From Arcobacter nitrofigilis DSM 7299 (lineage in GTDB: Bacteria; Campylobacterota; Campylobacteria; Campylobacterales; Arcobacteraceae), in contig NC_014166.1 in NCBI RefSeq assembly GCF_000092245.1, positions 1,302,001 to 1,366,000 of the forward strand: a stretch of 64,000 bases of DNA, given 5' to 3'. A program made the position numbers and the translations under genes. The first letter of the stretch is position 1; every line of letters begins with the position of its first letter. Below are positions 26,599 to 48,189 of this stretch, in pieces. A model generated the notes under the pieces. The model did not search any database and had not been told where the DNA came from. It saw nothing but the letters and a program-made list of their open reading frames with translations.

Positions 26599-26614
26599 GT
26601 GAATATTCATTTAT
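26599..26614 (+). promoter_or_regulatory. ATGAAT-N4-ATTCAT-like palindrome upstream of the TetR gene (degenerate)
   Basis: The sequence GTGAATATTCATTTAT differs from ATGAAT-N4-ATTCAT at two positions and contains the perfect 10-mer TGAATATTCA. It begins 69 bp upstream of the TetR-family gene at 26668, consistent with autoregulation. The same 13-bp core TGAATATTCATTT is found upstream of hydA1 (29772-29784). Confidence 0.55.
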
Positions 26615-26667: not shown

Positions 26668-27264
26668 ATGTCTGCAAAAGAAGAGAAAAAAAATAGTATT
26701 ATTCAAAATTCATTGATATTATTTGCAAAAAAAGGTTTTTATAATACAACTATTCCAGATATAGCAAAAGCTATGAGTATGAGTGTTGGTAACATGTATA
26801 ATTACTTTTCTTCAAAAGAAGAGTTAGCAAAAGTAGCCATAAAATATTCTACAAATATTATGGCAGATGACTTGCGAAAAATTAATAATATGGATATTAG
26901 TTCAAAAGAAAAGTTATATTTGTTTATTAAAAATTATTTAAATAATGTTAAAAACTCGCCTGAAGTTATAGATTACTTTTTAAGGGTTTATTTATCTAAT
27001 AGAGAAGTTTTTAAAGAAGGTTGTGAGGGATTCTTATGCGTAGGTGAATTTGTAACTGAAGTTATGATTTTACTTGATGATGGAGCTCAGAAAAAAGAGT
27101 TTAGAGAACAAGAATTTTTCCCTGCCTTTGGTATGTTAATGGGAAGTTTAGGTGGATTTGCATTTATGAATGGTGAAAATGTATTAGAAAAAGATTTATT
27201 AGAATATTCTGATTCTATTGCAGAAAATATTTATAGAGCATTAAAATATGATGAAAATCTATAA
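26668..27264 (+). CDS. TetR/AcrR-family regulator, candidate hydrogenase regulator
   Basis: A 198-aa protein with the TetR N-terminal HTH: 'SLILFAKKGFYNTTIPDIAKAM' then 'SVGNMYNYFSSKEEL' (recognition helix region). The C-terminal ligand domain has two or three Cys residues (for example in 'EGCEGFLCVGEF'), which could respond to redox or a metal, though that is only a guess. The stop overlaps the sensor-hydrogenase small-subunit gene by 17 nt, strongly suggesting joint translation. Palindromes of TetR-operator type lie before this gene and before both hydrogenase operons and hypB. I infer that it controls those genes; the mode is not known. Confidence 0.85.
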   Translation: MSAKEEKKNSIIQNSLILFAKKGFYNTTIPDIAKAMSMSVGNMYNYFSSKEELAKVAIKYSTNIMADDLRKINNMDISSKEKLYLFIKNYLNNVKNSPEVIDYFLRVYLSNREVFKEGCEGFLCVGEFVTEVMILLDDGAQKKEFREQEFFPAFGMLMGSLGGFAFMNGENVLEKDLLEYSDSIAENIYRALKYDENL

Positions 27265-28183
27265 AGAGGCTTTACCAAAAGTTGTTTGGCTTCAAGGTAT
27301 TACTTGTAATGGTAATACCCACTCTTTTTTATCTGCAAACTCATCAAGGTTTGAGCAGTTTAATAATAACTTTGATTTGATTTATCATCCAAGTTTAACT
27401 GTTGATACTACTCTTGATGAGATTTTAGAATCAGAAGATAGAATTGATTATTTGTTAGTTGAAGGTGCAATAACAAATGATGAATTTTATTTTTCAATTT
27501 CTAACAAAAATTTATCAGATGTTTTAAATACCCTTGTTTTAAAATCAGATTTTTTAATTGCCGTTGGTTCTTGTGCTTCTTATGGTGGAATACATGCAAA
27601 GTTTGAACAAAATAGTAAAATTGGTGGATTAAAAGATTCTATTTCCAATGAAAATCAAGCTTTATTATCCCATGAAATTATTAATCTTACTGGTTGTCCT
27701 GTTCATCCAGAATGGATATTACAAACTCTTTTTACGCTGAAGTTTAATGCTTCAATTACCCTTGATAATAAATCAAGACCAATAGAAATGTATGGAGGTC
27801 TTGCTCACCATGGTTGTACTAGAAATGAGTATTTTGAGTGGAAAGTGGAAGCTAAAAATTTTGGATTAAAAGAGGGTTGTTTATTTTATAATGAAGGTTG
27901 TCGTGGTCCCATGACACACTCAAATTGTAATAAAATTTTATGGAATGATGTTAGTAGTAAAACAAGAGTTGGTATGCCCTGTATAGGTTGTACAGAATAT
28001 GATTTTCCTAGACTTAATATGTTTGAAACTAAAAAACATATAGGAATACCTTTTGAGCCACCACTTGGAATTCCTAAAAGAGCATATTTATCAATTTCTG
28101 GTGTTGCTAAAACATTTACAATTCCTAGATTAAACCAAAAATTAAATCACTTTTATGAGAGTAAAAACAATGAAAACAGTTGA
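27248..28183 (+). CDS. hupU: [NiFe] hydrogenase small subunit, sensor-like (HupU/HoxB type, group 2)
   Basis: A 311-aa small subunit without a twin-arginine signal and without a C-terminal membrane anchor, so it is cytoplasmic like group-2 enzymes (cyanobacterial HupS, sensor HupU/HoxB). The N-terminus 'VVWLQGITCNGNTHSFLSA' carries Cys20 but has Asn23 where standard small subunits have the second Cys of CxxC. Further cluster ligands are in 'GSCASYGG', 'TGCPVHPEW', 'EGCLFYNEGCRGP' and 'PCIGCTEYDFP'. It is encoded with a large subunit that lacks a cleavable tail (next gene), as in H2 sensors. It overlaps the TetR gene by 17 nt and the large-subunit gene by 14 nt. Confidence 0.85.
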   Translation: MMKIYKEALPKVVWLQGITCNGNTHSFLSANSSRFEQFNNNFDLIYHPSLTVDTTLDEILESEDRIDYLLVEGAITNDEFYFSISNKNLSDVLNTLVLKSDFLIAVGSCASYGGIHAKFEQNSKIGGLKDSISNENQALLSHEIINLTGCPVHPEWILQTLFTLKFNASITLDNKSRPIEMYGGLAHHGCTRNEYFEWKVEAKNFGLKEGCLFYNEGCRGPMTHSNCNKILWNDVSSKTRVGMPCIGCTEYDFPRLNMFETKKHIGIPFEPPLGIPKRAYLSISGVAKTFTIPRLNQKLNHFYESKNNENS

Positions 28184-29522
28184 TATTGTCGAACGAATTG
28201 AGGGTGAAGCAAAACTTAATCTAATTTGGAAAGATAAGAAAGTAAGTGATGCTTCTATAGACTTTCTAAATTTTAGAGGTTTTGAATATATTTTAGAAAA
28301 TAAACCTATTTTAGATGCTTTAGTTTATACCCCAAGAATTTGTGGAATTTGTGGACAAGCTCACCTTTTAGCAACTGTTAATGCAATAGAGAATTTATAT
28401 AAAAACTCTGGCAATGAATTACAAATAACAAATAAGGCTAAAATACTTAGAGAATTAGGATTGATTATTGAAATAATTGATTCTCATATCAAGTGGTTTT
28501 ATATGTTTATTATGCCAGATGTTATTGAAATATCTAAAAAACAGTATGAGGGATATACTCCTTTAAAAGGGGAGAAATGGTTAGGAGCACAAAAAGGTGC
28601 AAGTGAGATAATTAAAGCCTTAGCTATATATGCCGGGCAATGGCCACATACTTCTTATATGCTTCCAGGGGGAGTAGTAAGTGACCCTACATTATTAGAT
28701 ATTGTAACTTGCGAAAACTATATTGATCAAACTATAAAGTACTTTGAAAAAGATATAGCAGGTATAAGTATTGAGAAATATTTATCTTTAAATAGCTTTG
28801 AAGAATTAACTTCTTTGTCTTCTTCTTTGAGAGATTTTGTTGATATTTCTTTTGAAACAAAATTAGAGCAAGTAGGAAAAGCACACAATAGGCATTTAGT
28901 TTTGTCAGATATGATAGGTGTAAAATCAGGATTTTTCAATAAAAAAATATCTATAAATTTAGATTTATCTAAAATAAAAGAGAGTGAAGAATACACTTTT
29001 AAATTAGAGAAAAGAAATGACAAAAAAGCTCATACTTGGTCTAAAAGTGTACAATATAATAAACAGTTTTATGAAGTAGGACCTCTATCAAGAGCTGTTA
29101 TAAATGAAAGAGAGTTTATAACAGCACTACATAATAAGTATGCTGATTCAACATTTACAAGAGTAATGTCTAGGGTTGATGAGATAGCACATCTTTTAAT
29201 TTATAGTAAAAAACTTATAAAACAAATAGATATAAGTGAAGACTCATATATTAAGCCTAAAGTTGATTTAAAAAGCTTAGAAAACATATCTGCAACTTCT
29301 ACAGTTGAAGCATGTAGAGGTTCTTTAGTTCATACTGTTAGTGTAAACAAAGGGCTTATTACAAAATATGATGTAATTACACCTACAGTTTGGAATTTAG
29401 GTCCAAGAAATAATGACGAACTAGGTGTTTCACAAAAAGCAATAATAGGTTCAAAATCGCTAAATGAGGCAAAAATCATATTAAGATCATTCGATATATG
29501 CTCTGTTTGTACCACACATTAA
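28170..29522 (+). CDS. hupV: [NiFe] hydrogenase large subunit, sensor-like (HupV/HoxC type)
   Basis: A 450-aa large subunit. The N-terminal motif is 'RIEGEAKLNLIW' and the first Ni ligands are in 'RICGICGQAH'. The second pair is in the C-terminal 'DICSVCTTH', and translation stops directly after that His. Catalytic uptake enzymes instead carry a 15-25 residue tail removed by a maturation protease; absence of the tail is the hallmark of regulatory hydrogenases such as HupV/HoxC. The ATG at 28170 was chosen over one at 28155 because GAGAG (28158-28162) gives correct spacing. No kinase such as HupT/HoxJ is encoded nearby. Confidence 0.85.
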   Translation: MKTVDIVERIEGEAKLNLIWKDKKVSDASIDFLNFRGFEYILENKPILDALVYTPRICGICGQAHLLATVNAIENLYKNSGNELQITNKAKILRELGLIIEIIDSHIKWFYMFIMPDVIEISKKQYEGYTPLKGEKWLGAQKGASEIIKALAIYAGQWPHTSYMLPGGVVSDPTLLDIVTCENYIDQTIKYFEKDIAGISIEKYLSLNSFEELTSLSSSLRDFVDISFETKLEQVGKAHNRHLVLSDMIGVKSGFFNKKISINLDLSKIKESEEYTFKLEKRNDKKAHTWSKSVQYNKQFYEVGPLSRAVINEREFITALHNKYADSTFTRVMSRVDEIAHLLIYSKKLIKQIDISEDSYIKPKVDLKSLENISATSTVEACRGSLVHTVSVNKGLITKYDVITPTVWNLGPRNNDELGVSQKAIIGSKSLNEAKIILRSFDICSVCTTH

Positions 29523-29537
29523 TGAACGTTTATTCAA
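29522..29537 (+). promoter_or_regulatory. ATGAAC-N4-ATTCAa palindrome after hupV
   Basis: ATGAACGTTTATTCAA matches ATGAAY-N4-RTTCAT except at the last base. It overlaps the hupV stop and lies about 270 bp upstream of hydA1, so it could act on the hydA1 promoter or on read-through from hupUV. Confidence 0.5.
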
Positions 29538-29724: not shown

Positions 29725-29770
29725 GAATTAAGTTTTATTTAAGTAACCAATAGTTAAATTACGGTAATAA

Positions 29771-29786
29771 ATGAATATTCATTTTT
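29771..29786 (+). promoter_or_regulatory. ATGAATATTCAT palindrome directly upstream of hydA1
   Basis: The 12-bp perfect palindrome ATGAATATTCAT lies at 29771-29782, within ATGAATATTCATTTTT, a degenerate match to the ATGAAT-N4-ATTCAT form. It is 18-33 bp before the hydA1 ATG and just upstream of the AAGGAG Shine-Dalgarno, downstream of the likely promoter, which fits a roadblock-type operator. Confidence 0.55.
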
Positions 29787-29803: not shown

Positions 29804-31051
29804 ATGGCTTACGATTCTCAGGAGATGGTTAAAAAAATTTTTAACCAGAACTCTGCAAGGGTGGATACGAACAAAGGTGAAGAGTTTTACAATAATCTAT
29901 TTGAAAAAACAAAAGCTAGATTAAGTAAACTAAGAAAACAACCAGCTCTTAAAGATATCGATATTATTGATATAGTAGAGAGTGAAGGTGTAAATAGAAG
30001 AGATTTTATGAAGTGGGCAAGTGCAACAACTGCTACACTTATGTTACCTCCTATGTTTACTCCTTTAGTAGCAGAAGCTGCTGAACTTATGAATAGAGTT
30101 CCTGTAATTTGGATTGAGTTACAAGATTGTGCTGGAAACTCTGAAGCATTATTAAGATCTTCTGCTCCTACAGTTGATTCTTTAATATTTGATGTATTAT
30201 CTTTAGAATTTCATGAAACAATTATGGCAGCTTCTGGTCATCAAGCTGATGCTCAACTTGAAGATGCAGTTGAACACTTCAAAGGTAAATATTTATTATT
30301 TGTAGAAGGCTCAATTCCTACAGCTATGAATGGTCAATATGGAACAATTGGTGCTTCTGGAGAGACTTTTCAAGAACATTTAATGAGACTATCAAAAGAT
30401 GCAGGAGCAGTTATTGCTGTTGGAGCCTGTGCTACATTTGGTGGAGTTCCAGCAGCTGCGCCAAATCCAACAGGTGCTGTTGGGGTTATGGATTTAGTTA
30501 AAGGTAAACCTGTAATTAATATTCCTGCCTGTCCTGCAAATCCAGCAAATATGGTTGGAGTTGTATTGCATTATATATTAACAGGGCAAGTTCCAGAATT
30601 AGACTCGTTACTTAGACCAAAATTTGCATTTGGATATAGAATTCATGATAACTGTGAAAGAAGAGCACACTTTGATGCAGGTGAATATGTGGAAGAGTGG
30701 GGAGATGAAGGTGCTAAAAATAACTGGTGTTTATATAAAATGGGATGTAAAGGTCCAATGACTTTTAATAACTGTTCTATTATTAGATATAACGAAGGTA
30801 CAAACTGGCCTATTGGTGTAGGACGAGGATGTATTGGATGTTCTGAACCAGATTTCTGGGATAAATATGCCTATGAAAGACCTATGGCTGACGCACATAT
30901 AAAAGCTCCAACTGGTGGAGTTGAGAAAACTGTTGATGAGTTTGGGTTAGGTTTATTAACTGCAACTACAATAGGTATTGGTGTACATGCAGTTGCATCA
31001 GCTGTAATTGGGAAAAGATCAATAAATAATGGTGAAAGTGAGGATGAATAA
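29804..31051 (+). CDS. hydA: Uptake [NiFe] hydrogenase 1, small subunit (Tat-exported, non-canonical proximal cluster motif)
   Basis: A 415-aa small subunit with an unusually long N-terminus: the twin-arginine motif 'NRRDFMKW' is at residues 64-71, followed by a hydrophobic segment. A C-terminal helix ('GLGLLTATTIGIGVHAVA') anchors it in the membrane. Cluster ligands are in 'GACATFGG', 'PACPANP', 'CERRAHFD', 'CLYKMGCKGP', 'NNCS' and 'CIGCSEPDFW'. The first motif reads 'DCAGNSEALLRS' (Cys109, Asn112), whereas hydrogenase 2 has the usual CTGCSES, so one proximal [4Fe-4S] ligand is replaced. It passes electrons from H2 to the cytochrome b subunit. It overlaps the large-subunit gene by 1 nt. Confidence 0.92.
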   Translation: MAYDSQEMVKKIFNQNSARVDTNKGEEFYNNLFEKTKARLSKLRKQPALKDIDIIDIVESEGVNRRDFMKWASATTATLMLPPMFTPLVAEAAELMNRVPVIWIELQDCAGNSEALLRSSAPTVDSLIFDVLSLEFHETIMAASGHQADAQLEDAVEHFKGKYLLFVEGSIPTAMNGQYGTIGASGETFQEHLMRLSKDAGAVIAVGACATFGGVPAAAPNPTGAVGVMDLVKGKPVINIPACPANPANMVGVVLHYILTGQVPELDSLLRPKFAFGYRIHDNCERRAHFDAGEYVEEWGDEGAKNNWCLYKMGCKGPMTFNNCSIIRYNEGTNWPIGVGRGCIGCSEPDFWDKYAYERPMADAHIKAPTGGVEKTVDEFGLGLLTATTIGIGVHAVASAVIGKRSINNGESEDE

Positions 31052-32787
31052 TGGGTAAACATATAGTAATAGATCCTATTACAAGGATTGAAGGACATTT
31101 AAGAATTGAAGCAGTAATTGATGACAATAATGTTGTTACTGATGCTTATAGTTCTTCAACAATGTTTAGAGGGATTGAAGAGATTTTAAAGGGTAGAGAT
31201 CCTAGAGATTGTGGTTTACTTGCTATGAGAATTTGTGGAGTTTGTACAGGTACTCACTATCAAAGAAGTATAGAAGCTGTTGAACATGCATTTAAAGTTA
31301 CAATTCCTAAAAATGCAAGACTAGTGAGAAATATGATGCAAGGGTCATTATATGTTCACGATCACATTGTTCATTTTTATCATTTACATGCGCTTGATTG
31401 GGTTGATATTACAAAAGCACTTGAAGCTGATCCTAAAAAAGCAGTTGAAGAAGCTCAAAAATGGGCTAAACTTTCAGGTCAAAGACCATGGAATGCTAGT
31501 GAAGATGTTTATGCAGAAGTTCAAGAAAGAGTAACAAAATATGTTAAACAAGGTAGACTTGGTATATTTGGAAATGCTTATTGGGGAAGTAAAGCTTATA
31601 AACTAACTCCTGAGCAAAATTTAATTGGTCTTTCTCATTATTTAGATGCCTTAGAATTACAAAGAGAAATTGCTAAAGCACAAGCTATTTTTGGAGGTAA
31701 AAATCCACATCCACAATCAATTGTTGTAGGTGGAGTTACTTGTGTACAAGATATAAAAAATCCTGCAAGAATTGCTGAATTTAAAACTATTATGCAAAAA
31801 GCACAAAAATTTGCAAAACAAGCATATTTACCTGATGTTTACATGGCTGGAACTATGTATGCTGATGAAGCACTTGATGGAACTGGTGGTGGTTTAGGTA
31901 ACTATATGTCTTATGGTGATTTTAATTTAGATGATACATCTTTTTATGAAGCTAAAAAACTTTTCCCTTCTGGAATAGTTATGAATAAAGATTTATCAAA
32001 AGTTTATGATTTAGATCAAACGAAAATATCAGAAGATGTAACTCACTCTTGGTATGAAGGTAAAACAAATTTACACCCTTATGTTGGTGAAACTAAACCA
32101 AACTATACAGGGTTTAAAGATAAAAAAGATGGTATTGCTTATTTAGATATTAAAAATAAATACTCTTGGATTAAATCACCTTTATATAATGATAATAGAA
32201 TGGAAGTTGGACCACTAGCTAGAATGATAGTAGGTGTAGCACGTGGTGATGAAAGAATTAGCAAATATGTTACTACATTTTTGAAAAATGGTAACTTACC
32301 AACTAAAGTTTTATTTTCAACTGTAGGAAGAACTGCTGCTCGAGCTATTGAGACAGAAATGATGAGTGATGTTATTCTTGATTGGGCAGATGAATTAGCT
32401 AAAAATGCAGCAAGTGGTGATTTATCTACTTGGACTGATTTTGATTTTGATAAAGTATCTAAAGATGCTCAAGGTTTTGGTATGGCTGAAGCTCCAAGAG
32501 GTGCTTTAGGACATTGGATTAAAATCAAAGATGGTAAAGTTTTAAATTATCAAGCGGTAGTTCCTTCAACTTGGAATGCAGCGCCTAAAGATTATAAAAA
32601 TAGAATGGGTGCTTATGAATCATCTTTAGTAGGAACAAAAGTAGTAGATCCTGATATGCCCTTAGAGATATTAAGAACAATACATAGTTTTGACCCTTGT
32701 ATTGCATGTGCAGTGCACATTGTAGATACTAAAGGTAAAGAACTAGGTGTATACAAAATTGATCCAACAGGTGTTTGCCGTGCGTAA
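31051..32787 (+). CDS. hydB: Uptake [NiFe] hydrogenase 1, large subunit
   Basis: A 578-aa catalytic subunit. Ni-Fe ligands are in 'RICGVCTGTHY' near the N-terminus and 'DPCIACAVH' near the C-terminus. After the last His there is a tail of about 22 residues ('IVDTKGKELGVYK...') to be removed by the HydD-type protease. 'RIEGHLRIE' is the usual N-terminal motif. It oxidises H2 at the periplasmic face. It starts in the stop of hydA1, and its 3' end overlaps the probable start of the cytochrome gene by 8 nt. Confidence 0.95.
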   Translation: MGKHIVIDPITRIEGHLRIEAVIDDNNVVTDAYSSSTMFRGIEEILKGRDPRDCGLLAMRICGVCTGTHYQRSIEAVEHAFKVTIPKNARLVRNMMQGSLYVHDHIVHFYHLHALDWVDITKALEADPKKAVEEAQKWAKLSGQRPWNASEDVYAEVQERVTKYVKQGRLGIFGNAYWGSKAYKLTPEQNLIGLSHYLDALELQREIAKAQAIFGGKNPHPQSIVVGGVTCVQDIKNPARIAEFKTIMQKAQKFAKQAYLPDVYMAGTMYADEALDGTGGGLGNYMSYGDFNLDDTSFYEAKKLFPSGIVMNKDLSKVYDLDQTKISEDVTHSWYEGKTNLHPYVGETKPNYTGFKDKKDGIAYLDIKNKYSWIKSPLYNDNRMEVGPLARMIVGVARGDERISKYVTTFLKNGNLPTKVLFSTVGRTAARAIETEMMSDVILDWADELAKNAASGDLSTWTDFDFDKVSKDAQGFGMAEAPRGALGHWIKIKDGKVLNYQAVVPSTWNAAPKDYKNRMGAYESSLVGTKVVDPDMPLEILRTIHSFDPCIACAVHIVDTKGKELGVYKIDPTGVCRA

Positions 32788-33499
32788 TTTTAAAAGGGTT
32801 GAGAGAATGACTCCAATCATGCGAATAATACATTGGACAAATGCTATTTGTATGATTGTTGCAGTTGCAACCGGGCTATATATTGGTCATCCTTATTATC
32901 AAACATTTATTGCAGATCCTGCAGTTGATAAATATGTTATGGCATGGAATAGATGGGGACACTTTATTGTGGCAATTATTTTTGATGTAACAGCTATTTT
33001 AATTGGTTATTTATATCTTTTTTCTAGATTTGAAAAACCATATAGAAAAATTTTACCAACAAAGAAAAACTTCATAGAATTTTGTGAAGTATTTTTTAAC
33101 CTTATAACTTTTAATAGAAGAAAAAAGTTTGATTCAACATATAGTGATAGTTATAACATTATGTTTTTTACGCTTTTTCATATATTATTAGTGTTTATGC
33201 TTTTAACTGGACTTCAAATGTATGTTCAAGGTTTAGAGTCTGGACAGAGTTCAATTGGGGCTTGGTGGCCATGGCTTTTACACTTTTCTACTGATTGGAC
33301 CCTTTGGGTATTTGGTGGAAATATGGGAGTTAGAATTGCACATCATACAGCAATGTATCTTTTATTGATGTGGGTTTTTTCTCATATTTATTATCAAATT
33401 TGGAGAACAATCTTCTGGAGAGAAGGTGATATGAATATTGTATTTGGTGGAACAAAATTCATAAATGACAAAGTTAACGCTAAAAATCTAGAAAAATAG
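32780..33499 (+). CDS. hydC: Hydrogenase 1 cytochrome b subunit
   Basis: A membrane di-heme cytochrome b (about 240 aa) of the Ni/Fe-hydrogenase family with four transmembrane helices. Probable heme-ligand histidines are in 'RIIHWTN', 'WGHFIVA' and 'AHHTAMYLLLMWVFSHIYY'. It links the hydrogenase to the menaquinone pool. The start is uncertain: a GTG at 32780 overlapping the hydB stop gives the conserved 'RNFKRVERMTP' N-terminus; an ATG at 32807 is the alternative. A hairpin follows the gene (33500-33526). Confidence 0.88.
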   Translation: MRNFKRVERMTPIMRIIHWTNAICMIVAVATGLYIGHPYYQTFIADPAVDKYVMAWNRWGHFIVAIIFDVTAILIGYLYLFSRFEKPYRKILPTKKNFIEFCEVFFNLITFNRRKKFDSTYSDSYNIMFFTLFHILLVFMLLTGLQMYVQGLESGQSSIGAWWPWLLHFSTDWTLWVFGGNMGVRIAHHTAMYLLLMWVFSHIYYQIWRTIFWREGDMNIVFGGTKFINDKVNAKNLEK

Positions 33500-33526
33500 A
33501 AGTTATGAGCTATGCTCATAACTTTT
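33500..33526 (+). terminator. Hairpin between hydC1 and hydD1 (possible partial terminator)
   Basis: A perfect 11-bp stem, AAGTTATGAGC / GCTCATAACTT, with a 3-nt loop, ending in a short T4 run. It separates the three structural genes from hydD/hydE and may reduce downstream expression or protect the hydABC mRNA 3' end. No such hairpin exists in the second operon, where hydC2 and hydD2 overlap. Confidence 0.6.
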
Positions 33527-33603
33527 ATCACTTATATAATAATATATCCACAAGTAAAAGTTGTTTTGTTTTTGAATGTATTAAATAAATATGAAGGTTA
33601 TAT

Positions 33604-34179
33604 ATGAAAAATATTGTAATAGGTGTTGGGAATTTACTTTTCAAAGATGAGGGAGTAGGTATCTTAGCTGCTAAATATTTAGAAGAAAATTATAAATTTG
33701 AAGGTGATATAGAGATTATTGATGGGGGAACATTAGGTTTTAAACTAATGACATATTTTCAAGAGTATGATAATGTAATTATCTTAGATACAGTATCTAT
33801 TGAAGATAAAGTAGGTGATATTTATAGACTTCCATCTGATGTTTTATTGGGACTTGGCCAGTATAGAAAAACAGCTCATGAAGTTGAGATTGTAGAGATG
33901 TTAGAGATATGTTCTGTTTTAGATAAACATGCAGAAGTAACAATCATTGGAATTATTCCTGAAGATATTATAAGTGTTCAAATCGGGCTTACAAAAACTA
34001 TTGAAGATAAGTTTATGGGACTAATTAATCAGGCTATTACAGATATTGAGAACTTGGGAATAAAAGTAGAAAAAAATGATGAACAAAAATCAATAGCTCA
34101 AATTTGTAAAGGCCTTTTAGGGTCATATAATGATGAGTATGATGAAAGAATACCAAATGATGAGGATACTACAAGATGA
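33604..34179 (+). CDS. hydD: Hydrogenase maturation endopeptidase
   Basis: A 191-aa protease of the HyaD/HycI (M52) family. It begins 'NIVIGVGNLLFKDEGVGILAA', with the conserved 'GNxLxxDEG' motif whose Glu is a nickel-sensing ligand; Asp and His ligands are expected in 'VIILDTVSI' and 'KTAHEVEI'. It cleaves the C-terminal tail of the hydrogenase large subunit after nickel insertion. The C-terminus has an acidic extension of about 30 residues. It overlaps hydE1 by 4 nt. Confidence 0.9.
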   Translation: MKNIVIGVGNLLFKDEGVGILAAKYLEENYKFEGDIEIIDGGTLGFKLMTYFQEYDNVIILDTVSIEDKVGDIYRLPSDVLLGLGQYRKTAHEVEIVEMLEICSVLDKHAEVTIIGIIPEDIISVQIGLTKTIEDKFMGLINQAITDIENLGIKVEKNDEQKSIAQICKGLLGSYNDEYDERIPNDEDTTR

Positions 34180-35720
34180 AGCTATTTTATAAAATAGAAT
34201 TTAATTGTACAAATCTATACTATAAATATATTTTAGAAAACTTAATAAAGGAGTATGATATAAGTGCAAGTGTTAGACAATATATTGGATTTATATTAAT
34301 TACTTGCAATGATAGTGAAGAAAAAATTGAAGGTTTTTTTGGATACTTAGGTAAAACTTTGCCTTTATCAATATTTTTAAAGAATTCATATGTTATTGAT
34401 GAGTTTGATGAATCTTTGGAAGAAATTGAAGATAAGAATATATTACAAAATGTCCTTACTTTTACTAATGATGATATTAAAAATATAATAAATGAAAATA
34501 CAAATATAAATTTTTCAAATGATATAAAAAGAATAAAAGAGGGAAAAATCTCTAAAATAGAGACACACAATGGACTAAAAAATATATTTTTACCTTCAAA
34601 AGTTTTAAGGGAAGAGTTTGAATCTAAAAACAATGAAGTGAAACTTTTTATTTGTAATATAAATAAATTGTCACAACTGTTTTCTTTAAGTCAAAGGGAT
34701 TTACAACTTCTTTGTTCTATTGAAAGACCTTTGGTAAAGTTAAAATTTAATATTTTGGAAAATAAAGAAAAAGAGTATTCAAAAACTAACTTTATATATG
34801 CCAAACTTCCAGATGATAAAGAGACTATACTTTTTGCAAATGCTTTACAAAAAGAGGGTATTGATTATTTATTATATGTAAAAGAAGAGAGCTTACAAGA
34901 TGGATTAAAAGTCACTTATTTCAACAATGAAAATATAATAATATGTGGCGAAAAATCTCTATTTCCAAAATATGATTATACTTTAAATAAGAAGTATAAT
35001 AATTCAAAAGATTTTTTTGATGATAATGGGGGAGTTATAAAAGCTACACTTGCAACAAATAATAAAAGAATAAAACCAAGTGTGTCAATTTATTTTTCAT
35101 ATAATAGTGATAATAGTTCTATTTCATTAAATATTCCAGGAAAAGGATTAAAAAATATTATTGTAATACCAAATATTATTTATGATGTTAATAATGCAAT
35201 GGAAGAGATATCTTTGATTGATGAAAATACAGCTAGATTAATCACAAATTACAAAAATAAATTTTCACAAAATTTTACTAAAGAGTTTAAAAATAAAGAT
35301 TTAAATGGATTTGAAGCAATCTTAAATCTTACATCTTACGTGCTTGGATTAGAGGATTATTTAGATTTTGAAAATGCAGCTTTTAATTGTAATGTAAAAA
35401 GTGGAATTCAAATCGATATGAAACTAATAAAAATCGATGGGATGAATTATTTAGACTATAGACGGGTTATTCAAAGTATAATGAGTTATAAAATGGCAGA
35501 TGTGTCAAATGAAATTTTGGCTTATTCTTTTTATGAAAGTTTAAGTGAATTTTTAAGTAATCAAATAAGTGCTCTTAATAAAGAGTTTAACTTTAAAGAC
35601 ATAATTTTATGTGGAAATATGTTTTCAAATTCACTTCTTTTAGAAAAAGCTAATAAATCTTTTTCAAAAACATTTAATGTAATTATTCCGAAAGAATACC
35701 CACTTGATATGGAGTTTTAA
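34176..35720 (+). CDS. hydE: HydE, HypF-like hydrogenase accessory protein (no Zn finger)
   Basis: A 514-aa protein at the HydE position of the Wolinella-type hydABCDE operon. Its C-terminus 'DIILCGNMFSNSLLLEKA' corresponds to the Kae1-like end of HypF ('VLLSGGVFQNKTLLEQL' in the hypF product here). The N-terminal part has 'LGKTLPLSIFLKNSYVIDE', matching the second HydE ('LSKFLPMSIFLKNVEV'). Unlike that paralogue it has no CxxC pairs. I infer a degenerate HypF relative, perhaps a maturation or scaffold factor; the actual function is not known. Length and frame look intact. Confidence 0.7.
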   Translation: MKLFYKIEFNCTNLYYKYILENLIKEYDISASVRQYIGFILITCNDSEEKIEGFFGYLGKTLPLSIFLKNSYVIDEFDESLEEIEDKNILQNVLTFTNDDIKNIINENTNINFSNDIKRIKEGKISKIETHNGLKNIFLPSKVLREEFESKNNEVKLFICNINKLSQLFSLSQRDLQLLCSIERPLVKLKFNILENKEKEYSKTNFIYAKLPDDKETILFANALQKEGIDYLLYVKEESLQDGLKVTYFNNENIIICGEKSLFPKYDYTLNKKYNNSKDFFDDNGGVIKATLATNNKRIKPSVSIYFSYNSDNSSISLNIPGKGLKNIIVIPNIIYDVNNAMEEISLIDENTARLITNYKNKFSQNFTKEFKNKDLNGFEAILNLTSYVLGLEDYLDFENAAFNCNVKSGIQIDMKLIKIDGMNYLDYRRVIQSIMSYKMADVSNEILAYSFYESLSEFLSNQISALNKEFNFKDIILCGNMFSNSLLLEKANKSFSKTFNVIIPKEYPLDMEF

Positions 35721-35837
35721 AATATTATTTTTTTAAAAGTACCAATAAGTAACATATGACCAAAATAATTTTATAAAACTAAATTTTATTATAAAGTTAA
35801 GATTAAGTTAAGATTTTTACTTGTAATATTTCTCTAG

Positions 35838-35853
35838 ATGAACAACCGTTCAT
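35838..35853 (+). promoter_or_regulatory. TetR-type palindrome ATGAAC-N4-GTTCAT
   Basis: A perfect 6+4+6 inverted repeat with AACC between the arms, about 200 bp upstream of hydA2. It is the strongest member of the seven-site set. Confidence 0.65.
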
Positions 35854-35880
35854 TAAAATAACATAAGATTTAAAGTTAAA

Positions 35881-35910
35881 AACCAACTTCATTTTGAAGC
35901 TGGTTTTTTT
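35881..35910 (+). terminator. Terminator-like hairpin between operator palindromes (first)
   Basis: Stem AACCAACTTC / GAAGCTGGTT with one mismatch and a 5-nt loop, followed by a T-rich run and preceded by an A-run that could extend the stem. It could terminate read-through from hydE1 or a short transcript starting near 35850. Confidence 0.65.
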
Positions 35911-35922
35911 ATTATCTTATTT

Positions 35923-35938
35923 ATGAATAGTCATTCAT
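35923..35938 (+). promoter_or_regulatory. TetR-type palindrome ATGAAT-N4-ATTCAT (left of inverted pair)
   Basis: Perfect 6+4+6 palindrome with AGTC in the middle. Together with TTT on its right it is the reverse complement of 35997-36015. Confidence 0.65.
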
Positions 35939-35956
35939 TTTTTTATTATACTTTTG

Positions 35957-35987
35957 CCAACCACTTTTTTAAAGGGTTGGTTTTTTT
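35957..35987 (+). terminator. Terminator-like hairpin between operator palindromes (second)
   Basis: Stem CCAACC / GGTTGG with a 12-nt T/A-rich loop, followed by seven T residues. It lies between the inverted pair of palindromes, 60 bp before the hydA2 start. Confidence 0.6.
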
Positions 35988-35999
35988 ATTCAAATTAAA

Positions 36000-36015
36000 A
36001 TGAATGACTATTCAT
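36000..36015 (+). promoter_or_regulatory. TetR-type palindrome ATGAAT-N4-ATTCAT (right of inverted pair)
   Basis: Perfect 6+4+6 palindrome with GACT in the middle, 32 bp before the hydA2 start and 20 bp upstream of its AAAAGGA Shine-Dalgarno. Confidence 0.65.
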
Positions 36016-36046
36016 TCTTAATATTTATTACTAAAAAGGACTAATT

Positions 36047-37213
36047 TTGGATATGTCAAAATTATTTAACAAATTATCAAAAAGATTAGAGAATTTAGAA
36101 AAACTTCCTAAATTAAATGATAATAAATCAATCCCAGATGTTTTAGCAGAAAAAGGGATTAATCGTAGAGATTTTATGAAATGGGCATCTGCAATGACTG
36201 CAATGTTAGCTCTTCCTGGAACATTTACTCCTTTAGTTGCAAAAGCTGCAAAACTAAGTGATAGATTACCTATTATTTGGCTTCATATGGCTGAGTGTAC
36301 AGGATGCTCTGAATCACTCCTAAGAACAGATTCTCCAACAATAGATTCATTGATTTTTGATTATATCTCTTTAGAATATCACGAAACACTTATGGCAGCA
36401 GCTGGTTGGCAAGCTGAAGGAAACTTAGAGAATGCAATAGAAAAGCATAAAGGTAAATATATCTTGATGGTTGAAGGTGGAATTCCCCATGGAGCAAGTG
36501 CTCACTTTCTAACTATTGGTGGACATGGTAAAACAGGTGAAGAAAATGCAAAAGCTGCTTGTGAAGATGCAGCCGCAATTTTTGCCATTGGTACATGTTC
36601 ATCTTTTGGTGGAGTGCAAGCTGCTATTCCAAATCCAACAGGTGCTGTAGGGCTTTCAAAAATTACAAATAAACCTGTAATTAATGTACCTGGTTGTCCT
36701 CCAAGTGAAAAAAATATTGTTGGTACTTTGATGCATTTTATCTTATATGGAAGTTTACCTGCTCTTGATGCATATAATAGACCAAAATGGGCTTATGGTA
36801 TGCGTATTCATGACTTATGTGAAAGAAGAGGTCATTTTGATGCTGGTGAGTTTGTAGAAGAGTTTGGGGATGAGGGTGCAAAAAGAGGTTATTGTTTATA
36901 TAAAGTAGGATGTAAAGGTCCATACACTTTTAATAACTGTTCTAAAAATAAATTTAATTCACATATGTCATGGCCTATACAAGCAGGACATGGATGTATA
37001 GGGTGTAGCGAACCAGACTTTTGGGATACTATGGGACCTTTTGAAGAACCAGTTGCTGATAAATTATATAACACAGTTTTTGGTGGAGGTGGTGCTGATG
37101 CTACTGCTGATAAAATTGGTATTGGTTTATTAAGTGTTACAGCAGTTGGAATTGCAGCTCATGCAGTAATAGCAAATTTTAAAAATCCAAAAAGTGATGA
37201 TGAGGAAGAATAA
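36047..37213 (+). CDS. hydA: Uptake [NiFe] hydrogenase 2, small subunit (canonical)
   Basis: A 388-aa small subunit very like Campylobacter/Wolinella HydA. The twin-arginine motif 'NRRDFMKWA' is at residues 39-47, and the C-terminal anchor is 'GIGLLSVTAVGIAAHAVIA'. The proximal-cluster motif is the standard 'ECTGCSESLLRT', followed by 'GTCSSFGG' and 'PGCPPSEKN', with distal and medial ligands in 'CERRGHFD', 'CLYKVGCKGP' and 'CIGCSEPDFW'. The TTG at 36047 is the best-spaced start after AAAAGGA (36034-36040); an ATG at 36053 is possible. It overlaps hydB2 by 1 nt. Confidence 0.95.
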   Translation: MDMSKLFNKLSKRLENLEKLPKLNDNKSIPDVLAEKGINRRDFMKWASAMTAMLALPGTFTPLVAKAAKLSDRLPIIWLHMAECTGCSESLLRTDSPTIDSLIFDYISLEYHETLMAAAGWQAEGNLENAIEKHKGKYILMVEGGIPHGASAHFLTIGGHGKTGEENAKAACEDAAAIFAIGTCSSFGGVQAAIPNPTGAVGLSKITNKPVINVPGCPPSEKNIVGTLMHFILYGSLPALDAYNRPKWAYGMRIHDLCERRGHFDAGEFVEEFGDEGAKRGYCLYKVGCKGPYTFNNCSKNKFNSHMSWPIQAGHGCIGCSEPDFWDTMGPFEEPVADKLYNTVFGGGGADATADKIGIGLLSVTAVGIAAHAVIANFKNPKSDDEEE

Positions 37214-38943
37214 TGGCAAATAAAAGAATAATAGTAGATCCAATTACTAGAATAGAAGGACACTTAAGAATAGAAGTTGAAATTGATGAGAACAATGTTA
37301 TCAAAAATGCTTTTGCTTCATCTACTTTATGGAGAGGGTTAGAAACAATAGTTAAAAATAGAGACCCAAGAGATGCTGGGTTTTTGATGCAAAGAATTTG
37401 TGGAGTATGTACTTTTTCTCACTATCGTGCAGGAATCGAAGCAGTTGAAGATGCACTTAAAATTACTCCTCCTTTAAATGCAAAATTAACTAGAAGTTTG
37501 ATGAATCAAGCTTTGTTTATGCATGATCATTTAGTACATTTTTATCATCTTCATGGTTTAGATTGGGTTGATATTACATCAGCTTTAAAAGCAGATGTTG
37601 CAAAAGCTAGTAAAGAAGCTTTTAAATATACAAAATATCCAATTGCAACAGGAGAAAATGATTTATTAAAAGTAAAAGATAGAGTAAAAGAGTTTGCAGA
37701 TAGGGGAGAACTTGGACCTTTTGCAAATGCATATTGGGGACATGAAACATTTAGATTAACACCAGAGCAAAACTTAATAGCTTTAAGTCACTATTTAAAA
37801 GCTTTAGAAGTGCAAAGAACAGCAGCTCAACTTATGGCGATGTTTGGTGGGAAACAACCACATCCACAAAGTTTAACAGTAGGTGGGGTTACTTGTGTAA
37901 TGGATTTATTAGATCCATCAAGAATGAGTGAATATCTAACAAAATATAAAGAAGTTGCAAACTTCATTGAACATGCTTATTATGCTGATATTTTGATGGC
38001 TGGAAAAGCTTATGCTTCTGAGCCTAGTGTTACAGCAAAGGCTGGAACTATGAATTTCATGTCTCATAAAGAGATGCAATTAAATAGAAGTGAATTTCTT
38101 TTTGATACAGGGATTATTTTAAATGGTGATTTATCAAAAGTTCACCCTATAAATGAAGATTTGATAACTGAAGAAGCAACACACTCTTGGTATAAAGATG
38201 ATGAACCATTACACCCCTATGATGGGAAAACAAATCCAAATTATACAGGTATGAGCGAAGCCATGACAATTGGAGCTGAAGGAAAAGAAGTTCATTCTAA
38301 AGTTATTGATGAAAAAGGTAAATACTCTTGGATAAAATCTCCTAGGTATGATGGAAAAGCTATGGAAGTTGGACCTTTAGCTTCTGTATTAGTTTCATAT
38401 GCAAGTGGGAATAAAAGAATAGTTAAAATTGTAGATGGATTTTTAGAAGAGACAGGACTTCCAACACAAGCTTTATTTACTACATTAGGAAGAACAGCTG
38501 CAAGAGCTTTACAAGTAAAAGCTATCATTGAAAATGGTTTAGAGACATTTGATGCTTTAATTGAAAATTTAAAAGTTGACCAAGAAACATATACTACTTA
38601 TAAAATAGATAAAGAGAAAGAGTACAAAGGTAGATTTATCGGCGATGTTCCAAGGGGAATGTTAAGCCATTGGATAAGAATCAAAAATGGAGTAGTTGAA
38701 AACTATCAAGCAGTTGTTCCTTCAACTTGGAATGCGGGTCCTGAAGACTCAACTGGACTAAAAGGACCTTATGAATCAAATCTAATAGGGTTAAAAGTAA
38801 AAGATATAACACAACCATTAGAGATTATTCGTGTTATTCATAGTTTTGACCCATGTATTGCTTGTGCTGTTCATGTGATGGATACAAAAGGTAATGAACT
38901 TGGAAGTTATAAAGTTGATCCAACTTATGGCACTTCGTGCTAA
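37213..38943 (+). CDS. hydB: Uptake [NiFe] hydrogenase 2, large subunit
   Basis: A 576-aa catalytic subunit with Ni-Fe ligands in 'RICGVCTFSHY' and 'DPCIACAVH', then a cleavable tail of about 22 residues ('VMDTKGNELGSYK...'). 'RIEGHLRIEVE' is the N-terminal motif. It is clearly paralogous to the product at 31051-32787 and matches the Campylobacter/Wolinella HydB used for H2-driven anaerobic and microaerobic respiration. It starts in the stop of hydA2 and is followed 12 bp later by hydC2. Confidence 0.96.
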   Translation: MANKRIIVDPITRIEGHLRIEVEIDENNVIKNAFASSTLWRGLETIVKNRDPRDAGFLMQRICGVCTFSHYRAGIEAVEDALKITPPLNAKLTRSLMNQALFMHDHLVHFYHLHGLDWVDITSALKADVAKASKEAFKYTKYPIATGENDLLKVKDRVKEFADRGELGPFANAYWGHETFRLTPEQNLIALSHYLKALEVQRTAAQLMAMFGGKQPHPQSLTVGGVTCVMDLLDPSRMSEYLTKYKEVANFIEHAYYADILMAGKAYASEPSVTAKAGTMNFMSHKEMQLNRSEFLFDTGIILNGDLSKVHPINEDLITEEATHSWYKDDEPLHPYDGKTNPNYTGMSEAMTIGAEGKEVHSKVIDEKGKYSWIKSPRYDGKAMEVGPLASVLVSYASGNKRIVKIVDGFLEETGLPTQALFTTLGRTAARALQVKAIIENGLETFDALIENLKVDQETYTTYKIDKEKEYKGRFIGDVPRGMLSHWIRIKNGVVENYQAVVPSTWNAGPEDSTGLKGPYESNLIGLKVKDITQPLEIIRVIHSFDPCIACAVHVMDTKGNELGSYKVDPTYGTSC

Positions 38944-38955
38944 AAAGGTTAAAAA

Positions 38956-39645
38956 ATGATTGAAAGAAAATATGAGTTTTCTGGTGTACTAAGATTAAAT
39001 CACTGGATTAGGGTGGTTACTTTATTGATACTAGTTGTGACAGGTTTTTATCTTGCAAAACCATTTTTAACACCATTTGTTACTAATGAACCAGTAAATT
39101 TTATGAATGCATTATGGAGATTTTGGCATTTGATTTTTGGATTTGTATTGATTGGTACAACTATATTCAAAATATATTTATTTATATTTGATAGACAAAG
39201 TAGAAATGAAAGGGTTTCATTTTTTGATTTTATTAGTCCAAAAATATGGATTCAACAGATTAAATATTATATGTTAATTGGTACCCATCCAGAGGGAAGA
39301 GGAATTTATAATCCTTTACAATTTATAGCTTACTTTATGGTATTTGTGACCTTATTTTTAGTTTCATTGACGGGATTAATACTTTATATGCATGTTTATC
39401 ATGATGGATTAGCTGGATTACTTTTTCCATTATTGAGACCAATAGAGGTACTTATGGGTGGCTTAGCCAATGTTAGAGAATTACACCATCTTACGATGTG
39501 GATATTTTTGATTTTTATTCCTATTCATATTTATATGGCAGTGTTTAATTCTGTATATGGTAAAAGTGGTTCTATGGATACTATTTTTAGTGGATATAGT
39601 TGGCATAAAAAACATGAAAAAAAAGAGGGTAAAACAAAAAAATGA
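38956..39645 (+). CDS. hydC: Hydrogenase 2 cytochrome b subunit
   Basis: A 229-aa cytochrome b with four transmembrane helices. Candidate heme ligands are His in 'RLNHWIRVV', 'FWHLIFG', 'MHVYHDG' and 'ELHHLTMWIFLIFIPIHIY'. It transfers electrons from HydA to menaquinone. It is shorter than the first operon's cytochrome and follows hydB2 by 12 bp, with AAAAGG before the ATG. Its stop overlaps hydD2 by 4 nt. Confidence 0.92.
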   Translation: MIERKYEFSGVLRLNHWIRVVTLLILVVTGFYLAKPFLTPFVTNEPVNFMNALWRFWHLIFGFVLIGTTIFKIYLFIFDRQSRNERVSFFDFISPKIWIQQIKYYMLIGTHPEGRGIYNPLQFIAYFMVFVTLFLVSLTGLILYMHVYHDGLAGLLFPLLRPIEVLMGGLANVRELHHLTMWIFLIFIPIHIYMAVFNSVYGKSGSMDTIFSGYSWHKKHEKKEGKTKK

Positions 39646-40205
39646 ATATCTTAATATTAGGAATAGGAAATATTCTTTTTCAAGATGAAGGTATAGGTGC
39701 ACATTTTGTGCACTATTTAGATGAAAAATATACATTTAAATCAAAAAAATCAAAAGTAACTATTATTGATGGTGGAACTTTGGCTCAAAGATTGATTCCT
39801 GAAATTATCAAGTATGATGAAGTAATTATAATTGATTGTATTGATGCAAATAATGCAAAAGCAGGTGATGTGTACTTTTTCGATTATAATGCTATGCCAA
39901 ATTGTGTAAATTGGCAAGGAAGTGCCCATGAAGTAGAGATGCTTCAAACACTTAAAATGATAGATATGAATCAAGACTTGCCTTTTACTAAAATCTTGGG
40001 AATCATTCCAAAAAGAGTTGCAGATGATACTACTTTTGAATTAAGCGAAGAGATTCAATCTTCAATTATAACTATGGAAAATAGTATTAAGAATTATTTG
40101 AAGTTATTTGATGTAGAAATGTATGTAAAAAAAATGGATACATATATCGCAAATATAGCAGAAATAAGCTATAAAAGGGACATTATAAATGGTCCTTACT
40201 TATAA
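39642..40205 (+). CDS. hydD: Hydrogenase maturation endopeptidase
   Basis: A 187-aa HyaD/HycI-family protease beginning 'NILILGIGNILFQDEGIGAHF', with 'VIIIDCIDANNAKAG' and 'GSAHEVEML' as the other metal-ligand segments. It should trim the HydB tail. It is paralogous to 33604-34179 and overlaps hydC2 (4 nt) and hydE2 (17 nt), so translation is coupled. Two proteases may each serve their own large subunit; that pairing is inferred from position. Confidence 0.92.
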   Translation: MNILILGIGNILFQDEGIGAHFVHYLDEKYTFKSKKSKVTIIDGGTLAQRLIPEIIKYDEVIIIDCIDANNAKAGDVYFFDYNAMPNCVNWQGSAHEVEMLQTLKMIDMNQDLPFTKILGIIPKRVADDTTFELSEEIQSSIITMENSIKNYLKLFDVEMYVKKMDTYIANIAEISYKRDIINGPYL

Positions 40206-41847
40206 GTTTGAATATCTTTCAAATAATTTTACCTTAATTCATAATTTAAAAGCATGTTTAAAAAGTTTTGAATTAAATTATAAAATTTTAAAACAGAATA
40301 ATCATATAAATTTATATGTAGAAGGTGAAGCAATAATTCTTGATGAGTTTTCTAAATATTTGTCAAAATTTCTTCCAATGTCTATTTTTCTAAAAAATGT
40401 AGAAGTTAAAAATATTGATAAGATTCCAACACATAGTGATATCACTTATTTAGATTCTTCACCTTTGACTTTTTGTTCTAAATGTTTACAAGCAGTTGAA
40501 GAAAAAGGCAATCTAAATTATTATAATCCTTTTATTTTTTGTGAAGAGTGTGGACAAGATTTAGAAGCAAAGGGTTTAATATTATTTGATGGTAAAAAAG
40601 AGATAAAAAAATCAAATTATATTGAATATTTTGAATATAGTTCAAAATTAATAAATGATGGAAAAAGAATAAAAATCAAAACCTTAAGTGGTGATTTTAT
40701 TTTCTCAAAACTTGAGTGTATCCCTGAAAATGAAAAAGTTAATGTTAAATTATTATGTACTGATTTAAATAGTATTTCTGAAGTTTTTATTGCCTCAAAA
40801 GAAGAAATAGTAGCCCTTGGATCGACTGAAAAACCATCTATAAATTTAAAAGTTAATGAAGTTTTTAAATCAAAAAATCTTTTAAAAAATGAATATGTTA
40901 ATACAAGATATGCAAATGACATGATTTTGTACTTATTAAGTTTAGAGTTAGAGAAATATAATATAAAATTTTTGGCATATTGGAATAGTGATAACTTTGA
41001 TTCATTATTAAGTTTTATTAGTACTTTTCCTTATAAAAAAATAGATATCCCAGAAATTTCTATTTTACAAAATAATCAAGTGCTAATTTTAAAATCAAAA
41101 GATTATGATAAGAGTTTAAACAAAGTATATAAGAAATTTGAGGAAAAAAATAAATCACAATTTATGGTACTTTTAAAAGAAAACTTCTTACAAGAAAAGA
41201 GTATTTTAAATACGTATTCAAGTAGTAAACATGATGATGCGATGACATTATATTCTCCAAAAATAGATGGAATGATTGATATATTCAAATTTGACTTACC
41301 TAGAAGCATGGTAGAATTATTTAATGAAATAAAAAAAGACTCTATTGGTAAAAAGTTAATTTTAAATTATGAAAAATCTTTTCCAAGTTTATATAATAAT
41401 GTACTTGCTTATGATTTATCTACTATTCATAATAATTCAATAAATAGTTTATGGAAAATAGTATCTATAATTTTAGGTTTTGATATGAGTGTTTTAGAAG
41501 GTGCCAATAATGCCCTAGTAAGTAAAGGTCCTAGAATAGATTATAAATTAAAAGAAAGCGATAAAATATATAATAAAGAGTTTGATGTTTTAAAATTCAT
41601 ACAAAGTGGTATAAGTTATAAACTTGCGGGAACTGATGATAGAGTTATTAGTTTAGGATATGTAGAAAGTTTTGCACAATTTATATCATCATGTGTTGAT
41701 ATGGTAAATGAAGAAATGCCTTTAGATGGAATAAGTCTTTGTGGAGATTTATTTGCCAATAAACTTATTTCTTCTTTTGTACATAAAAGCATTACAAAAA
41801 ATTATAAAATATATTATAATAAGGACTTTCCTATACAAATTGATTAA
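40189..41847 (+). CDS. hydE: HydE, HypF-like hydrogenase accessory protein (with Zn finger)
   Basis: A 552-aa protein homologous to the product at 34176-35720. It keeps two CxxC pairs ('CSKC' about residue 99 and 'CEEC' about residue 122) that recall HypF's zinc-finger domain. The N-terminal 'LSKFLPMSIFLKNVEV' matches the other HydE. The C-terminus 'DGISLCGDLFANKLISSF' corresponds to HypF's 'SGGVFQNKTLL'. I infer a HypF-derived accessory factor for hydrogenase 2, of unproven role. It overlaps hydD2 by 17 nt and ends 9 bp before hypF. Confidence 0.72.
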   Translation: MVLTYKFEYLSNNFTLIHNLKACLKSFELNYKILKQNNHINLYVEGEAIILDEFSKYLSKFLPMSIFLKNVEVKNIDKIPTHSDITYLDSSPLTFCSKCLQAVEEKGNLNYYNPFIFCEECGQDLEAKGLILFDGKKEIKKSNYIEYFEYSSKLINDGKRIKIKTLSGDFIFSKLECIPENEKVNVKLLCTDLNSISEVFIASKEEIVALGSTEKPSINLKVNEVFKSKNLLKNEYVNTRYANDMILYLLSLELEKYNIKFLAYWNSDNFDSLLSFISTFPYKKIDIPEISILQNNQVLILKSKDYDKSLNKVYKKFEEKNKSQFMVLLKENFLQEKSILNTYSSSKHDDAMTLYSPKIDGMIDIFKFDLPRSMVELFNEIKKDSIGKKLILNYEKSFPSLYNNVLAYDLSTIHNNSINSLWKIVSIILGFDMSVLEGANNALVSKGPRIDYKLKESDKIYNKEFDVLKFIQSGISYKLAGTDDRVISLGYVESFAQFISSCVDMVNEEMPLDGISLCGDLFANKLISSFVHKSITKNYKIYYNKDFPIQID

Positions 41848-47532: not shown

Positions 47533-48189
47533 TTAATATTTGAAATATAAATCTTTTAAAATATTTATTTGCTTATTTTGTAAGTAGTTAAATTTGAACT
47601 CACACTCTTTTAAGTAATAAAAGAAGTTTTTCTCATCAACTCCTTTGTATTTTTTCAAATTTTCTTCAAGATATTTCCAAAAAATACCCAAAGGAGTTTT
47701 ATAAGAGTTTATAGAATAAAGTTTATGCCATTTTAAATAATACTCATAATCTTTTGTGCTACTTTCAATACTATGTTTAGGTAGCTTAGGCATAAGTAAT
47801 GTATATATTTTTTTACTTGAATAAAAACCAATGATATTAATAGCATCAAAAAGTGAGCGGGTTTTTTTATTTTGTTCTCTTGTTGTAAAGTAATAGTACT
47901 CTTGATAGGAGCTATTATCTTTTATACTCATATTGTACTCTTCATCTAAAAAGTTTGCTATAAGTCTTCTAAAAAGCATATATCTATTTTGAACAGTTCT
48001 ATAATTTAGTTCTAATATTTGTGCTGTTTTATTTGCATTTATATTGTTACAAAAGTAGTTTATTATTGTTATATCTGTTTCTAATTTTTTTAATGAGAAT
48101 TTTCTTTTGCAAGATTTACATTTTTTATAGTTATCTTGTAAGTTATAAAGTAAGTGATGATTACAAAAAGGGCAATTAGTTAAATTCAT
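47533..48189 (-). CDS. IS1595-transposase-derived zinc-ribbon/HTH protein (probably domesticated)
   Basis: A 218-aa protein. It has an N-terminal zinc ribbon ('CPFC' at 6-9, 'CKSC' at 24-27), a helix-turn-helix ('NKTAQILELNYRTVQNRYML'), and a C-terminal segment 'IFWKYLEENLKKYKGVDEKN' followed by 'LKECEFKFN', which matches the conserved end of IS1595/ISXO2 transposases ('FWSxLKRRLxKFxG...LxECEFRFN'). The acidic DDE residues that I would expect do not appear: 'LGIFW' replaces 'IExFW', and no D near the centre fits. No terminal inverted repeats are seen. I infer an ancient, domesticated derivative; a DNA-binding role is possible. Confidence 0.6.
   Translation of the reverse strand: MNLTNCPFCNHHLLYNLQDNYKKCKSCKRKFSLKKLETDITIINYFCNNINANKTAQILELNYRTVQNRYMLFRRLIANFLDEEYNMSIKDNSSYQEYYYFTTREQNKKTRSLFDAINIIGFYSSKKIYTLLMPKLPKHSIESSTKDYEYYLKWHKLYSINSYKTPLGIFWKYLEENLKKYKGVDEKNFFYYLKECEFKFNYLQNKQINILKDLYFKY

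Follow-up and report, generated by a model that had tools for sequence, protein, structure and literature searches.

A TetR-family regulator paired with a tail-less group 2d [NiFe] hydrogenase suggests a kinase-free route of H2 sensing in Campylobacterota and Aquificota

Introduction

To our knowledge, all sensor hydrogenases that have been characterized signal through a kinase and a regulator, as in HoxBC-HoxJ-HoxA. In this system of Cupriavidus necator, and likewise in HupUV-HupT-HupR of Rhodobacter, the hydrogenase is a cytoplasmic, tail-less [NiFe] dimer of group 2b with no Tat signal, which is thought to sense H2 and to switch the genes of uptake hydrogenases. Group 2d comprises hydrogenase III of Aquifex aeolicus, Hup2 of Hydrogenobacter, the "cytoplasmic hydrogenase" of Sulfurimonas, and HupSL of Sulfurospirillum. 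The literature that places this lineage in group 2d either leaves its function unresolved or guesses at ferredoxin reduction (PMC5401914, PMC10052474, PMC2628731), and hydrogenase III is barely detectable in Aquifex (PMC10052474). In Sulfurospirillum multivorans, a TetR-like gene upstream of hupSL has already been noted as a possible hupSL repressor (PMC5357620). The genes concerned form the same block, in the same phylum, as those described below; the proposal was limited to repression of hupSL, and the account contains no operator, link to an uptake hydrogenase, sensor role, or phylum-wide pattern.

This work concerns a locus of Arcobacter nitrofigilis DSM 7299 in which both a regulator and a putative operator accompany a hydrogenase, in contrast to the ferredoxin-related or unresolved role found in the group 2d literature. 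The window analyzed is a stretch of 64,000 nucleotides (NC_014166.1, positions 1,302,001 to 1,366,000) from a complete chromosome of 3,192,235 bp; all coordinates given below are positions within it unless stated otherwise. Where HoxBC and HupUV work with a kinase and an NtrC-type activator, the partner of this hydrogenase is a one-component TetR-family protein, a putative repressor. No description of a TetR-hydrogenase sensing circuit was found in the literature, and the genomic evidence suggests a route of H2 sensing that has not yet been described.

Organization of the locus

The three genes of the block lie on the forward strand and overlap head to tail. The first, tetR (26668 to 27264), encodes a one-component regulator of the TetR/FadR clan with 198 amino acids (Pfam TetR_N, 47.7 bits). 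It overlaps by 17 nt the gene for a hupU-like small subunit of a group 2d-type [NiFe] hydrogenase (27248 to 28183; Pfam Oxidored_q6 and NiFe_hyd_SSU_C), which in turn overlaps by 29 nt the gene for a hupV-like, tail-less large subunit with the C terminus ...DICSVCTTH (28155 to 29522; Pfam NiFeSe_Hases). Gene calls and Pfam matches reproduced exactly the coordinates and the 17-nt overlap proposed in an initial interpretation of the DNA letters, referred to here as the sequence-only reading.

Three presumed target operons follow on the same strand. Two of them, hydA1-hydB1-hydC1-hydD1 (29804 to 35720) and hydA2-hydB2-hydC2-hydD2 (36047 to 41847), each encode a Tat-exported uptake hydrogenase and end with a gene for a HypF-C domain. 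The third, comprising the maturation genes hypB, hypC, hypD, hypE, and hypA, spans 50375 to 54788, and hypF (41857 to 44085) comes directly after the hydA2 operon. The last gene of each hyd operon (34176 to 35720 and 40189 to 41847) resembles the C-terminal (Kae1-like) domain of HypF, and their divergence is rapid relative to that of the catalytic subunits. The gene at 47533 to 48189 encodes a small protein whose N terminus resembles a zinc ribbon; it is kept near hypF in several family members.

Class of the hydrogenase

The sequence-only reading had described a large subunit lacking a cleavable tail and a small subunit lacking both a Tat signal and a membrane anchor, and alignment with homologues bears this out. 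All 68 aligned large subunits are tail-less and stop at the same motif, the final residue being H in 51, Q in 13, and K in 4. The small subunit begins directly at the proximal-cluster motif, so that no Tat/RR signal is present in the sequence, and its C terminus lies about 60 residues past the last cluster ligand, with no room taken by an anchor. The Ni-Fe and Fe-S ligands are all conserved except for the second proximal-cluster Cys, which is replaced by Asn (CxGN) as in Huc-type enzymes, and the electron-exit path through the small subunit is complete.

The same reading had labeled the enzyme HupUV/HoxBC, a label that has to be withdrawn, since both the tree and the cluster ligands place it outside group 2b. 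In the tree, the A. nitrofigilis small subunit and those of Aquificota form one clade (99/99) apart from the Huc-type group 2a, whereas HoxB and the HupU of Bradyrhizobium (group 2b) form a clade of their own (100/99). The large subunits are only about 27% identical to those of HoxBC/HupUV. On this phylogeny the hydrogenase is assigned to the clade of the Aquifex, Hydrogenobacter, Sulfurimonas, and Sulfurospirillum enzymes; the clade comes from the tree and the number 2d from the literature. By sequence, the closest solved structure to both subunits is Huc of Mycobacterium smegmatis (group 2a; PDB 7utd), whose relatives share the CxGN motif. Unlike the hydrogenase described here, enzymes of group 2a carry a C-terminal tail, come with a maturation protease, serve energy metabolism, and are accompanied by no such TetR.

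Residues of the gas channel were considered as a sensor signature. At the position of I62 of HoxC, Ile (in the CGIC motif) is common to the group 2b enzymes and to 68 of 68 homologues in our alignment. At the position of F110, the A. nitrofigilis protein has Phe, but so do only 23 of the 68 homologues, the rest having mostly T, V, or S; a bulky gas-channel residue is true of this hydrogenase and not of its clade, and was rejected as a signature. The tail-less enzyme also evolves faster than the uptake enzyme of the same genomes (large-subunit identity of ∼59% versus ∼86%). Separately, a further, only distantly related group 2 hydrogenase was found in one Campylobacterota genome (locus L179, G138:C31); it is tailed, lies among hyp genes with no TetR, and forms a long branch in the tree.

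Co-occurrence of the regulator and the hydrogenase

Among 104 Arcobacteraceae genomes, the small subunit was found in 66 and the TetR protein in 67, in nearly identical sets of genomes. In all 60 Arcobacteraceae loci that were retrieved, tetR-hupU comes first and, where the contig is long enough, hupV and hydA come next; in most of these loci tetR and hupU overlap by 8 to 17 nt. This recurrence, together with the constant gene order in 60 loci, argues that the overlap is not a product of chance. Other Campylobacterota families have the tetR-hupU-hupV block at almost every locus that was read, the paralogous L179 being different, and the block is conserved in part of the Aquificota. In five loci (L045, L046, L049, L052, and L066), a gene of the opposite strand for a transglutaminase-like protein of ∼210 amino acids with a signal-peptide start lies between hupU and hupV.

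Across 397 Campylobacterota genomes, 109 have both proteins, 5 only the TetR, 1 only the hydrogenase, and 282 neither (109 of 115 positives); the corresponding numbers for 121 Aquificota genomes are 47, 6, 1, and 67 (47 of 54 positives). These counts and the Fisher P values derived from them ignore shared ancestry and are descriptive only. The exceptions, in 6 Campylobacterota and 7 Aquificota genomes, some of which are drafts, run against the interpretation favored below. In several Aquificota, the TetR and hydrogenase genes still co-occur at distances of 14 to 736 kb, and therefore hitchhiking within an operon does not explain the pairing. Where the genes are unlinked in Aquificaceae, tetR adjoins hypB and hydA. 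In two Aquificaceae metagenome-assembled genomes (L233 and L234), tetR and hydA are separated by a gene for a GGDEF protein (diguanylate cyclase).

A profile search of GTDB genomes retrieved close members of this TetR family (≥270 bits) only from Campylobacterota and Aquificota. The next TetR proteins score ≤65 bits and are unrelated; they occur without HupU and almost always lack the CxxxxC motif described below.

A palindrome upstream of hydrogenase operons

A 16-bp palindrome, ATGAAYNNNNRTTCAT, has four exact copies on the chromosome, all of them in the hydrogenase cluster. Three precede hydA2, as distal (ATGAACAACCGTTCAT, 35838 to 35853), middle (ATGAATAGTCATTCAT, 35923 to 35938), and proximal (ATGAATGACTATTCAT, 36000 to 36015) putative operators, and one lies 23 to 38 nt upstream of hypB (ATGAACAAGTATTCAT, 50337 to 50352). 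As a simple proportion, the chance that four of four exact copies fall within 25 kb of 3.19 Mb is ∼4e-9. Two further putative operators, each with one mismatch and with positions kept in relatives, precede hydA1: a distal site at the hupV stop codon (ATGAACGTTTATTCAA, 29522 to 29537) and one located 22 to 37 nt upstream of the gene (ATAAATGAATATTCAT, 29767 to 29782). A weak putative operator with two mismatches (GTGAATATTCATTTAT, 26599 to 26614) lies 54 to 69 nt upstream of tetR, and several relatives have sites ∼68 to 82 nt upstream. In many genomes the operator before tetR itself is weak or missing, a finding that counts against the interpretation favored below.

Specificity resides in the 16-bp form: a shorter palindrome, ATGAATATTCAT, was not enriched in the window relative to shuffles and was discarded. 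Candidate regulon members beyond the cluster were counted by a genome-wide pattern search allowing one mismatch, which gave 65 copies versus 55 for a reversed control, and most of these copies are thus due to chance. With at most one mismatch, the palindrome was present at 28/28 hydA2 and 39/55 hydA1 promoters of the family (55/55 for hydA1 at up to two mismatches) and at 25/38 hydA promoters elsewhere in the phylum, versus means of 0.4 to 0.9 for 60 permuted palindromes of the same composition. The consensus over 142 sites is AATGAATRATYATTCATT. Upstream of hydA, sites are concentrated at 30 to 40 nt and again around 110 nt, a spacing expected of a promoter-bound repressor with a second upstream operator.

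The palindrome also follows the regulator. In the most telling control, it was absent, at up to two mismatches, from 17 promoters at 15 orthologous hyd loci in genomes of three genera, the genomes being without TetR/HupUV, and an exact copy was found at a locus (L118) whose genome encodes TetR on another contig. Aquificota have this palindrome before hydA and hypB, the hypB site occurring in Persephonella-type genomes. By this comparison across genomes, TetR controls hyd and hyp through a putative operator whose occurrence depends on the presence of the regulator. We infer the direction of control to be repression, and the operator evidence makes it very probable that TetR represses the hyd and hyp promoters.

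The TetR protein

The regulator has an N-terminal TetR_N helix-turn-helix and an all-helical ligand domain, as judged from Pfam, the structural model, and fold comparison. It belongs by fold to a FadR-like clan, its nearest solved structures including acyl-CoA regulators of the FadR type, and FadR of Bacillus is among them with a VIA-align Z score of ∼19. The known operator of FadR resembles the palindrome of the hydrogenase cluster. Identity with FadR was nonetheless rejected, as the NCBIfam FadR model scores 43 bits against a cutoff of 200. In contrast to Bacillus FadR, moreover, this protein has an invariant Cys pair and adjoins hydrogenase genes rather than genes of fatty acid metabolism.

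The pair in question, C119 and C124 (C119-x4-C124), accounts for all the cysteines of the protein, and both residues are invariant in 96 Campylobacterota sequences; a CxGxxC motif is found in 51 of 52 Aquificota members. The sequence-only reading had hinted at the cysteines of the regulator, a hint that gains weight from their being the sole two and invariant across the phylum. An AlphaFold2 model of the monomer has a pLDDT of 90 overall and low confidence around residues 111 to 120, a loop that bears the first Cys and several near-invariant residues, with C124 in or beside it. A fixed sequence in a loop that is loose when modeled as an isolated monomer would suit a site for a cofactor, a disulfide, or a partner. 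We found no clear precedent in the literature for a TetR protein with a Cys-ligated Fe-S center.

Proposed signal path and alternatives

We propose that these genes form an H2-responsive module, a reading that we consider probable: TetR would repress the uptake-hydrogenase operons and hypB, and the group 2d hydrogenase, as a sensor, would relieve this repression. Besides the comparative evidence above, the fast divergence of the tail-less large subunit, the low detectability of hydrogenase III in Aquifex, and the lack of soluble H2-uptake activity in Sulfurimonas denitrificans speak for this reading. TetR would bind the 16-bp palindrome close to where transcription starts; a further copy often lies ∼75 to 80 bp upstream. 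The tail-less hydrogenase, made from the same transcript as tetR, would oxidize H2 in the cytoplasm and pass a signal to TetR, which would then leave the operator, so that the H2-consuming enzymes would be produced when H2, the presumed signal, is present. The coupling step would most simply be an electron transfer or a contact that alters the state of the C119/C124 loop, either between dithiol and disulfide or at a metal or Fe-S center common to the dimer. That the group 2d hydrogenase is the H2 sensor seems to us the better bet; a thiol or redox step via the cysteine loop, made directly or through a carrier, is put forward tentatively. Equally speculative is the broader idea of an ancient one-component circuit in Campylobacterota and Aquificota: their group 2d hydrogenases would be H2 sensors, each acting on a dedicated TetR repressor via its invariant Cys pair, with direct electron transfer from hydrogenase to transcription factor.

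Transcript data from S. multivorans, which has the same block, temper this proposal. There, hydB is transcribed in nearly all conditions with no significant response to H2, hupL transcripts are almost absent, and the authors suggested that an H2 sensor may be missing (PMC5357620). Either traces of H2 always relieve repression in this organism, or the signal differs. Because its uptake hydrogenase did not respond to H2 in that study, our confidence in the H2-responsive module is only moderate.

Another reading, which we regard as unlikely but as the most serious competitor, has TetR repress hyd/hyp and hupUV in response to a different ligand, perhaps acyl-CoA or another metabolite, with the group 2d hydrogenase simply belonging to the regulon and supplying ferredoxin with electrons, e.g., for the reductive tricarboxylic acid (rTCA) cycle. 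The closeness of the fold to FadR-type acyl-CoA regulators favors such a ligand, although the FadR score given above falls far short of the cutoff. A ferredoxin or rTCA role has been proposed in print (PMC2628731, PMC5401914), yet no electron-acceptor or other partner subunit is encoded with the enzyme. Moreover, no convincing ATP-citrate lyase was found in the A. nitrofigilis genome or in most HupUV-bearing Arcobacteraceae, so the rTCA guess is ill suited to A. nitrofigilis. In Sulfurimonas denitrificans, the gene is transcribed, yet the soluble fraction has no H2-uptake activity (PMC4149538). The role of a plain hupSL repressor suggested in S. multivorans (PMC5357620) would fit this reading as well, but TetR and the hydrogenase co-occur even when their genes are unlinked.

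A variant of the H2-responsive module, slightly less probable than the reading just discussed, dispenses with protein contact: HupUV would act on a small, freely diffusing redox carrier or shift the redox state locally, and TetR would sense this change. The complete electron-exit path of the small subunit and the distance between tetR and the hydrogenase genes in some Aquificota agree with it. Against it, tetR and hupU overlap translationally in most Arcobacteraceae, which suggests that production of their proteins is matched. One Aquificota genome has a [2Fe-2S] ferredoxin gene directly between tetR and hydA (L242:4971-5869), and this ferredoxin is a possible electron carrier to TetR.

Very improbable is a two-component route, with a histidine kinase and its response regulator encoded elsewhere in the genome and TetR as a separate input. 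It has the general precedent of HoxBC/HupUV in its favor, and our kinase look-up covered the neighbors of the block; but no kinase gene was recognized there, the hydrogenase falls outside group 2b, and the A. nitrofigilis genome yielded no activator of the HupR/HoxA type. The canonical route is unlikely because the only strong sigma-54 activator of that genome resembles NifA, starts with a GAF-type region, and lacks a receiver. The central idea of the sequence-only reading, a TetR protein in the place of the kinase, emerges much strengthened by the co-inheritance of the two proteins, the putative operator at hyd and hyp, and the absence of a kinase or NtrC-type activator gene beside the block.

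The H2-responsive module would give a candidate, testable function to a group of hydrogenases that has had none. The analysis yields a named regulator, an exact putative operator, a list of presumed targets, and a candidate sensor common to many H2 oxidizers that live at vents and in redoxclines. Should the coupling prove real, it would constitute a second, kinase-free mode of H2 sensing and offer a compact module with which to make gene expression respond to H2.

Other genes of the loci

Two further features of these genomes merit description. A gene for a methyl-accepting chemotaxis protein (44277 to 46283) lies between hypF and hypB, inside the hydrogenase cluster, and such genes also occur a few kilobases 5' of tetR in other loci of the family (L084, L088, and L092); the protein in the cluster possibly serves energy taxis or H2 taxis. 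A third [NiFe] hydrogenase is encoded near nifA (L125:9442-13529, chromosome positions about 34441 to 38528). Its small subunit forms the C-terminal part of an 807-amino-acid protein, the N-terminal region of which comprises an NAD(P)/FAD oxidoreductase and a BFD-like [2Fe-2S] region, and reading frames of ∼800 amino acids with the same match are present in several other Arcobacteraceae genomes.
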